Source of the DNA: Crocinitomicaceae bacterium
GTDB taxonomy: Bacteria; Bacteroidota; Bacteroidia; Flavobacteriales_D; Crocinitomicaceae
NCBI GenBank assembly: GCA_024643555.1
Contig: JAHEMQ010000001.1
Location: 39,383 to 103,382, forward strand
DNA length: 64,000 bases
Direction: 5' to 3'
Under the pieces are notes generated by a model. The model ran no database searches. It was given only the letters and a program-made list of their open reading frames with translations, and had not been told where the DNA came from. Shown here piece after piece: positions 1,591-33,380 of the stretch (position 1 is its first letter; each line of letters opens with the position of its first letter). Position numbers and translations under genes: made by a program.

Positions 1591-2118
1591 ATGCAAAAAC
1601 AAGATTGTTTTTATTTAGGAATAATAGCGAAACTTCACGGATTTAAAGGTGAAGTTTCGTTGTTTTTAGACGTTTCTAATCCATCGGATTATGCGACGTT
1701 GGACGCTGTTTTCATCGAGATAGATGGTAGCTTAATTCCTTTTTTTGTTCAAAACTTGAAGATGAAAACGAAAGGATTCGTCGCAGTGAAATTTGAAGGA
1801 ATCGATAGCGAACAAGATGCACAGCGCATATTAAAGAAACCCGTTTATTTACCAGAGGCTTTTTTGCAAGAATTAGATCAGACATCGTTTTACGATCATG
1901 AAATCATTGGGTACACGGTCTTTGATGAAGTGCATGGAAACGTTGGTGTTGTTGAAAATGTCATTGATATGGCTGCAAATCCACTATTGCAATTAAGCAA
2001 AGATGGGGTAGAGGTTCTTATTCCGATTTTCGAAGGACTTGTTCAAAAAGTTCAGCGCAAAAAAAAGGAGCTTTATGTAAAAGCTCCTGAAGGTTTGATC
2101 GATTTGTATCTTTCTTAA
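1591..2118 (+). CDS. rimM: Ribosome maturation factor RimM
   Basis: GIIAKLHGFKGEVSLFLD N-terminus and AANPLLQLSKDGVEVLIPIF PRC-barrel motif; immediately downstream of rpsP. Confidence 0.96.
   Translation: MQKQDCFYLGIIAKLHGFKGEVSLFLDVSNPSDYATLDAVFIEIDGSLIPFFVQNLKMKTKGFVAVKFEGIDSEQDAQRILKKPVYLPEAFLQELDQTSFYDHEIIGYTVFDEVHGNVGVVENVIDMAANPLLQLSKDGVEVLIPIFEGLVQKVQRKKKELYVKAPEGLIDLYLS
2059..2087 (-). terminator. Intrinsic terminator on minus strand, embedded in the 3' coding region of rimM, serving the convergent GH3 gene
   Basis: Minus strand reads GGAGCTTT-TACAT-AAAGCTCC-TTTTTTTT: perfect 8-bp stem, 5-nt loop, 8-T tract, about 28 nt past the GH3 stop. Confidence 0.8.
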
Positions 2119-3260
2119 TTGGCTTTTAATAAGCCCATCGCAATTTTCATTCGAAGTACTTTCTTAGCCGATTCATCCACACGTTTCTTGAATTCTTTGT
2201 CCGTGCGGTATGCAGCTAATATCTCAGCATGCGCTTTCTTCGCGTCTAGTGGCATCAGTACGATGTCACATCCTGCATGAATGGCTTTGTAAGCCGCTTG
2301 CGGGACATTTACCACACCTCCCATGTTCATGGCATCCGTTACAATTAATCCTTTGAATCCTAGGCTATCTTTTAATAAGTTCGTTACAATTTTTTCTGAA
2401 CAGGTGGAAGGCAATCCTTTAGTGTCGTATTTGGCATTGTTTTGCACCGCAATATGTGCCACCATGATGGATAGAACGCCATTGGCAATCAAGGTTGGAT
2501 AGTTGCATATCTCTTTCATTTCACCATCAATTACTTGAAGTGCTTTGTGTGTATCCCCGGTTACTAATCCATGTCCTGGGAAATGTTTGGCCGTTGCGAT
2601 GATGTTATTTTTTTGAGTTTCTTGAATGAAGGCATCCGACCATGGAATGATATTCGCCGGAACAGCACCAAAACTTCTGAATCCAACTGTCGTGTTCGGT
2701 GACATGTCAACAACAGGTGAAAAGTTGTAATTGATTCCAATGGCATTTAAATCAGCAGAAATCGTTTTGGCACATGCAATGACTTCATCCACATTTTTTA
2801 ACTCATTTGCCTTTTTTACTGGCGTTGAACCCGTGATTTTTCGATTCACTAAACTTGGCTCAGCATCAGCGCTATATAAAAAGGGTAAATTTCCAAATTT
2901 GGAATTATTAGTTTCAAAGTCCTTGATCCAACTGGAAAATTCTTCTTTTGTTCCGTTTAACATTAGGACACCTCCGATGACCCGATCTTTGATGTGTTGA
3001 TCAATCGTCGCTTTGGTTTGACCTAAGCGTCCAACCGCTGGCATGATCAACTGAGCGACAATCGCTGTGTCATCCATTTGTTTGAAAATGCGTTCCACTT
3101 CTTTGTCCAAGTCTTTGTTATCCTTAAGAAAATCAGACAATTGAAAGGTGATTTCGCTTTTTGGCTGTACAACTTTCACTTGTTTGGTCGACTCATTTGA
3201 TTGGGCACAACCTTGAAACAGAAGTCCAGCTAGAAATAAAGGGGTGATTAATTTTTTCAT
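2115..3260 (-). CDS. Glycoside hydrolase family 3 N-terminal domain protein (beta-N-acetylhexosaminidase/NagZ-like), lipoprotein
   Basis: Lipobox LLFQGCAQ; NFSPVVDM, AKHFPGHG and VTDAMNMGGV motifs typical of NagZ-type GH3. Confidence 0.9.
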   Translation of the reverse strand: MKKLITPLFLAGLLFQGCAQSNESTKQVKVVQPKSEITFQLSDFLKDNKDLDKEVERIFKQMDDTAIVAQLIMPAVGRLGQTKATIDQHIKDRVIGGVLMLNGTKEEFSSWIKDFETNNSKFGNLPFLYSADAEPSLVNRKITGSTPVKKANELKNVDEVIACAKTISADLNAIGINYNFSPVVDMSPNTTVGFRSFGAVPANIIPWSDAFIQETQKNNIIATAKHFPGHGLVTGDTHKALQVIDGEMKEICNYPTLIANGVLSIMVAHIAVQNNAKYDTKGLPSTCSEKIVTNLLKDSLGFKGLIVTDAMNMGGVVNVPQAAYKAIHAGCDIVLMPLDAKKAHAEILAAYRTDKEFKKRVDESAKKVLRMKIAMGLLKAN

Positions 3261-5736: not shown

Positions 5737-5776
5737 AAAAAAAAGTCCCTGACATTATTGTCAGGGACTTTTTTTT
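5737..5776. terminator. Bidirectional intrinsic terminator
   Basis: AAAAAAAAGTCCCTGACA-TTAT-TGTCAGGGACTTTTTTTT, perfect inverted repeat between convergent genes. Confidence 0.93.
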
Positions 5777-30515: not shown

Positions 30516-30547
30516 AAAAAAACCGAGTGATTTCACTCGGTTTTTTT
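30516..30547. terminator. Bidirectional intrinsic terminator between GNAT gene and trxB
   Basis: AAAAAAACCGAGTGA-TT-TCACTCGGTTTTTTT. Confidence 0.92.
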
Positions 30548-33281: not shown

Positions 33282-33312
33282 AAAAGGTCACATGTTCATG
33301 TGGCCTTTTTTT
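33282..33312 (+). terminator. Intrinsic terminator after subtilase copy 2
   Basis: AAAAGGTCACATG-TT-CATGTGGCCTTTTTTT (one G-U pair). Confidence 0.85.
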
Positions 33313-33372
33313 GTGTAAGAAAAGCAGAAGATACCAAATCAAGGAATGTGATTCGGTCTCGAATCATTTTCT

Positions 33373-33380
33373 TATTTTTG
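33373..33380 (+). promoter_or_regulatory. -7 box TATTTTTG upstream of the TerC-family gene
   Basis: Lies 23 nt before ATG 33404, inside the computed longer ORF (33311). Confidence 0.5.

Follow-up and report, generated by a model that had tools for sequence, protein, structure and literature searches.

How can a gene end its transcript when its stop codon lies within the last codons of a convergent neighbor? The question is raised by the rimM/GH3 junction in a 64-kb stretch of Crocinitomicaceae DNA (hereafter, the window). On the plus strand, rpsP, the gene for ribosomal protein S16 (854-1585; Pfam PF00886; ATG at 854, stop TAA at 1583-1585), is located upstream of rimM, which is essential and acts in ribosome assembly (1591-2118; open reading frame with PF24986 and PF01782). 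Facing them on the minus strand is an open reading frame for a GH3-family protein (2115-3260; Glyco_hydro_3, PF00933, E=6.8e-50) with a lipoprotein-like N-terminus. rimM and GH3 share four nucleotides (TTAA), the palindromic stop of both genes. An exact 4-nt overlap occurs in five of the ten convergent gene pairs of the window (junctions 2115, 7143, 26247, 34429 and 60216).

Because the overlapping genes leave no intergenic room, the candidate terminator of GH3 is placed within rimM codons. The plus strand at the 3' end of rimM reads CGC AAAAAAAA GGAGCTTT ATGTA AAAGCTCC TGA. On the minus strand this gives the hairpin AGGAGCTTT-TACAT-AAAGCTCCT, read from 2088 to 2066, and then seven more T (2065-2059). 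The first T of the resulting T8 tract (2059-2066, minus; the Lys codons AAA AAA AAG on the plus strand) forms the closing A-U pair of the stem, and the tract lies directly 3' of the stem in the transcript, as in an intrinsic terminator. The original prediction of a perfect hairpin and T-tract after the GH3 stop, wholly within the 3' codons of rimM (codons 157-166), is confirmed by direct reading of the sequence; the stem is indeed perfect, but its length is 9 bp and not the 8 bp first given. With four G-C pairs the hairpin qualifies as stable, and it begins 26 nt beyond the GH3 stop codon, close enough for an intrinsic terminator. Folded alone, the 41-nt segment reaches -12.5 kcal/mol (z = -4.5), and the stem has the highest pair count among terminator-like sites in the first 20 kb of the window. 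No terminator of rimM itself was found on the plus strand in the first 250 nt of GH3. The hairpin sequence is present in a single copy in this genome, which rules out a dispersed repeat. Taken with the comparisons among relatives described below, these features indicate that the 2066-2088 hairpin is very probably a functional intrinsic (Rho-independent) transcription terminator of GH3.

Could such a structure arise by chance from a Lys-rich protein end? We resampled the end of rimM synonymously, with the RimM protein fixed and the codon usage of the 64-kb window (4000 trials). Only one trial gave a hairpin with E<=-11.5 and a strong T-tract, and eight did so at a looser cut. The baseline for comparison is the window plus the retrieved loci. 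Strong terminator-like hairpins within coding sequences of the window number three, compared to 0.93 per codon-shuffled 64-kb window, and terminator-like hairpins in coding sequences number six against 4.4, which is near the shuffled level. The number of such hairpins by itself therefore proves nothing. Given that they are not rare per 64-kb window, it is position and conservation that exclude chance for the 3' hairpin. Ordinary intrinsic terminators are present elsewhere in the genome (e.g., 5740-5773 and 30520-30543). Embedded terminators are not a general feature of overlapping convergent genes in the window: a strong one occurs in only one of eight overlapping or abutting pairs (rimM/GH3 itself), and a rule of that kind was rejected.

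Comparison with relatives makes the codon-level case. In the genus, 86 genomes were searched and RimM was found in 80. The stem and T-tract occur at the same rimM codons in 28 genomes, all 28 of which have a convergent GH3 gene that overlaps or closely adjoins the end of rimM. RimM identity within this set falls as low as 63%, and the codons AAA AAA AAG GAG ... GCT CCT are almost invariant among neighboring codons that vary. We counted third-position changes by parsimony on a tree built without these codons, using the 26 stem-bearing genomes with full-length rimM. Codons 157-160, 164, 165 and 166 show 0, 0, 0, 0, 0, 1 and 0 changes, whereas similarly conserved comparison codons elsewhere in rimM average 5.7 changes per codon. 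Across the whole genus, the ten codons 157-166 accumulate 171 changes where the mean for a stretch of the gene is 175, and so change at the gene's average rate. Thus, the stem codons are under no special constraint outside the stem-bearing clade.

These data bear on the simplest alternative, in which the conserved RimM C-terminus (RKKKELYVKAPEG) and codon bias produce the stem incidentally and it does nothing as RNA. A Lys-rich sequence with APEG is common in RimM, and Lys codons partly account for the T-tract. However, the less common codons AAG (21%) and GAG (22%) are kept in 28 of 28 and 27 of 28 stem-bearing genomes, respectively. Leu161 is CTT or CTC in 27 of 28, although about 70% of the Leu codons in rimM are TTA, TTG, CTA or CTG. 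In one genome (G100), GAG has become GTG (E160V) together with a silent change of GCT to GCA, so that AGGAGC/GCTCCT is replaced by the compensated pair AGGTGC/GCACCT. Along with the one-in-4000 resampling result and the lack of constraint on the same codons when the whole genus is counted, this makes a by-product very unlikely. Protein constraint alone is ruled out by the codon nulls and the unconstrained sites of the whole genus, and largely refuted by the frozen codons. The original prediction that rimM codons do double duty, checked as proposed at synonymous positions in relatives, is thus supported by the frozen third positions (one change over seven codons), the resampling null and the 28 genomes. 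Covariation alone is weak evidence for this stem: pair counting finds one double-sided change, and 22 of 500 shuffles score equally high. It is codon freezing that carries the case.

Which strand is the structure for? The signal had been described as one-directional, and two observations bear this out. No T-tract follows the stem on the plus strand, and wobble in the nine stem pairs, counted over distinct sequences, fits the minus reading 11 times and the plus reading never. For example, Leu161 CTC gives U-G in minus-strand RNA and A-C in plus-strand RNA. Since wobble fits the minus reading and never the plus reading, the RNA that matters is that of the GH3 strand. Codon freezing, the one compensatory pair and minus-only wobble together indicate that selection maintains the structure on the strand that is transcribed.

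The same evidence weighs on a plus-strand role, in which A AAA AAG would be a -1 frameshift slippery site and the stem would act in rimM mRNA. The slippery heptamer A AAA AAG is indeed present in the right phase with a stem after it, but the stem begins at the last bases of the heptamer, leaving no spacer of 5-9 nt. The wobble pairs fit the minus strand only, and so the structure is not one of the coding strand. The -1 product would add a tail of just four to seven residues that differs between genomes and ends at an earlier stop in G100, and no shifted product is conserved. We consider frameshifting highly improbable, and a programmed -1 signal was rejected on the grounds of the missing spacer, the minus-only wobble and the unconserved tail.

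The distribution of the stem is narrower than that of the gene arrangement. A convergent GH3 gene without the 3' stem is found in 37 genomes of the genus, and the expectation that stem conservation would accompany convergence is therefore borne out in the 28 genomes and fails in the 37. Four near relatives (G018, G065, G097 and G024) lack the stem and have no replacement for it within the final 260 nt of rimM, and most of the remaining stemless genomes of the genus have no strong candidate in that interval. Two more distant genomes with convergent GH3 (G017 and G033; loci L022 and L024) carry at these rimM codons another hairpin, AGGTGCTCGAACGAGCATCT, whose tail is T-rich, possibly an independent gain. 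In a tree of GH3 and RimM combined, the genomes with the stem group with the four near relatives as a single 30-member clade (support 0.78), for which the simplest history would be one gain and two losses. The 37 genomes imply that the element is dispensable over evolution. Thus, it is clade-limited and favored, and not required by the gene arrangement.

Stemless relatives must end their GH3 transcripts in some other way, and hairpins can also mark the trimmed ends of RNAs. The hairpin might then be an RNA-processing or 3'-end stability element of GH3 mRNA (an exonuclease stop), with termination further downstream, e.g., by Rho. A processing stop has no need of a T-tract, yet the tract is kept alongside the stem in 28 of 28 genomes, and we regard this possibility as very improbable. 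With termination as the preferred function, RNA polymerase leaving GH3 would enter rimM in the antisense direction, and the hairpin would form 26 nt beyond the GH3 stop codon. The T-tract would then pause polymerase, and the transcript would presumably be released. Readthrough from GH3 would then yield only some 60 nt of RNA antisense to rimM, and limiting such RNA may be the benefit. Among synonymous rimM codons, selection would have fixed the ones that encode the GH3 terminator.

The 3' hairpin codons are not the strongest frozen block in rimM; that block is codons 13-23. The codons GCG AAA CTT CAC GGA TTT AAA GGT GAA GTT TCG, plus the first base of codon 24, spell GCGAAACTTCAC, 10 nt and GTGAAGTTTCGY. 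They form a 12-bp hairpin in the sense orientation, GCGAAACTTCAC-ggatttaaag-GTGAAGTTTCGT (1627-1660, plus; codons 13-24), which begins 41 nt after the rpsP stop. Its fold reaches -22.4 kcal/mol (z = -6.2), and it is followed by the U-rich tail TGTTTTT (1661-1667, plus; codons 24-26). A hairpin with a U-rich tail soon after an upstream gene is the form expected for an internal operon terminator, here spanning 1627-1667 on the plus strand. The region gives no Rfam match near the gathering score, and corresponds to no described family there.

This second hairpin is near-invariant across most of the family Crocinitomicaceae. The hairpin-core pattern has a single occurrence in most Crocinitomicaceae genomes and is almost absent from other families of the order, and the hairpin is absent from the sampled members of genera g23, g24, g28, g31, g40, g42 and g43. 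Double-sided swaps occur in the stem (AGA/GTC for AAA/GTT, and CTC/GGA for CTT/GAA). There are 12 double-sided cells compared to 2.2 expected, a level reached by none of 500 shuffles, as expected of compensatory pairing. Wobble in the twelve pairs fits the plus strand, with 54 plus-type cases and three minus-type, the latter confined to two genomes with broken stems. In the tail, Phe25 is TTT in all genomes of the genus that have Phe there (68 of 77, the other nine having Tyr TAT), compared to 76% TTT for Phe codons elsewhere in rimM. Separately, we note that records titled Polynucleobacter, Chryseobacterium gleum, Chitinophaga pinensis and Glaciecola amylolytica (L086, L089, L100 and L110) carry a Crocinitomicaceae-type rimM; their labels or assemblies look wrong.

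We suggest that the codon 13-24 hairpin probably acts as a partial terminator within the operon, reducing rimM expression relative to rpsP. It is better conserved than the 3' element and its function is less certain. A less likely possibility, which we nonetheless take seriously, is that it serves as a translational control element or protein-binding site in rpsP-rimM mRNA and not as a terminator. Ribosomes translating this part of rimM would melt the stem, and a clade that includes G017, G026 and others keeps the stem with a weak tail (TTTGTATATG). A ribosomal S16 leader has also been described in Flavobacteria (PMC7247131), although it lies upstream of rpsP. On the other hand, the U-rich tail is kept in most genomes. 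Both sampled Crocinitomicaceae in which the hairpin is broken (G169 and G244) have a canonical terminator instead, in an rpsP-rimM gap of 69-71 nt, and where the gap between rpsP and rimM is wide, an intergenic terminator occupies the equivalent position in most Bacteroidia.

The latter statement comes from a survey of roughly 100 further Bacteroidia loci, none of them from the codon 13-24 set (L034-L048, L120-L138 and L204-L313), scanned from the rpsP stop to approximately rimM codon 70. Of the 41 sampled genomes whose gap measures 56 nt or more, 36 have an intergenic terminator-like hairpin. Where the gap is below 30 nt, none of 57 has an intergenic one, and in 16 of the 57 a candidate overlaps the rimM start or lies within rimM (Fisher p, ignoring relatedness, 9e-22 for intergenic and 1e-4 for in-gene candidates). 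In a control stretch, rimM codons 76-150, terminator-like hairpins occur in two of 215. The in-gene site varies by lineage (codons 8-16 in family f13; codons 20-31 in family f44; codons 37-50 in families f60, f15 and f6 and in genus g42), and the sites show double-sided differences such as GGAATC/GATTCC and GGGATC/GATCCC. We infer that a partial terminator between rpsP and rimM may lower RimM relative to S16, and that it may have shifted into rimM where the gap is too small. It is not universal: among the 57 short-gap genomes, 41 show no candidate at all. Ribosomes translating rimM may gate the terminator. Elsewhere in the window, a terminator at 33283-33308 (plus) is followed by a terminator-like hairpin at 33342-33373 (plus) inside the 5' codons of the next gene, an arrangement that resembles rpsP-rimM.

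There are precedents for intrinsic terminators, for terminators placed between converging genes and for terminators inside operons. Tail-to-tail gene pairs are enriched for intrinsic terminators, as found in a TransTermHP survey (PMC1852404) and in termination mapping of Z. mobilis (PMC7566282). The GH3 element shares with these (PMC1852404, PMC7566282) a hairpin and T-tract just past the stop of a converging gene. However, the known examples are usually intergenic and often bidirectional, whereas this one is one-directional, lies wholly within its partner's codons, and is frozen with a compensating change. Transcript ends inside a neighbor's coding sequence are also known, from the literature on overlapping convergent 3' ends and excludons (PMC7154746). 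The excludon cases mostly involve readthrough or long 3' untranslated regions, in contrast to the compact embedded terminator of rimM/GH3, which would limit antisense RNA.

In ABC importer operons of Clostridia, the ratios between genes are set by internal terminators whose stems are long and whose U-tracts are weaker (PMC9045158), and in the rpsP-rimM operon of B. subtilis a T1 terminator has been mapped downstream of ylqC (PMC10100781). The Bacteroidia candidates resemble these in having an abundant upstream and a scarcer downstream product, and in B. subtilis the terminator is likewise between rpsP and rimM. They differ in that many lie inside rimM codons, are translated, and vary in position by lineage. 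The S16 leader of Flavobacteria is an RNA structure of the same operon in related bacteria; it is found upstream of rpsP, and the hairpins described here are within rimM. In the open-access literature, where absence is weak evidence, we found no description of a terminator that frozen codons preserve throughout a clade within an essential convergent gene, or of an rpsP-rimM terminator that shifts between intergenic and coding positions. A search of that literature for terminators within convergent coding regions gave nothing direct.

The coding sequence of rimM is thus shaped by two non-protein messages. On balance we lean, by a modest degree, toward a broader reading in which rimM of Bacteroidia repeatedly hosts translated intrinsic terminators. 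A class-wide partial terminator would follow rpsP and would lie in varied codons where the gap is short, so that the S16:RimM stoichiometry would be set by a stop signal that rimM ribosomes must outrun; one clade would add the terminator of an antisense neighbor at the far end. For rimM itself, the finding is a clean case of double-duty codons in which the strand of action can be read from wobble alone. To judge from the rpsP-rimM survey, a stop signal can relocate from intergenic to coding sequence without being lost. The moved signal provides a natural test of transcription-translation coupling in Bacteroidia, for which we found little termination data in the open-access literature. It also warns against treating synonymous sites in compact operons as neutral.
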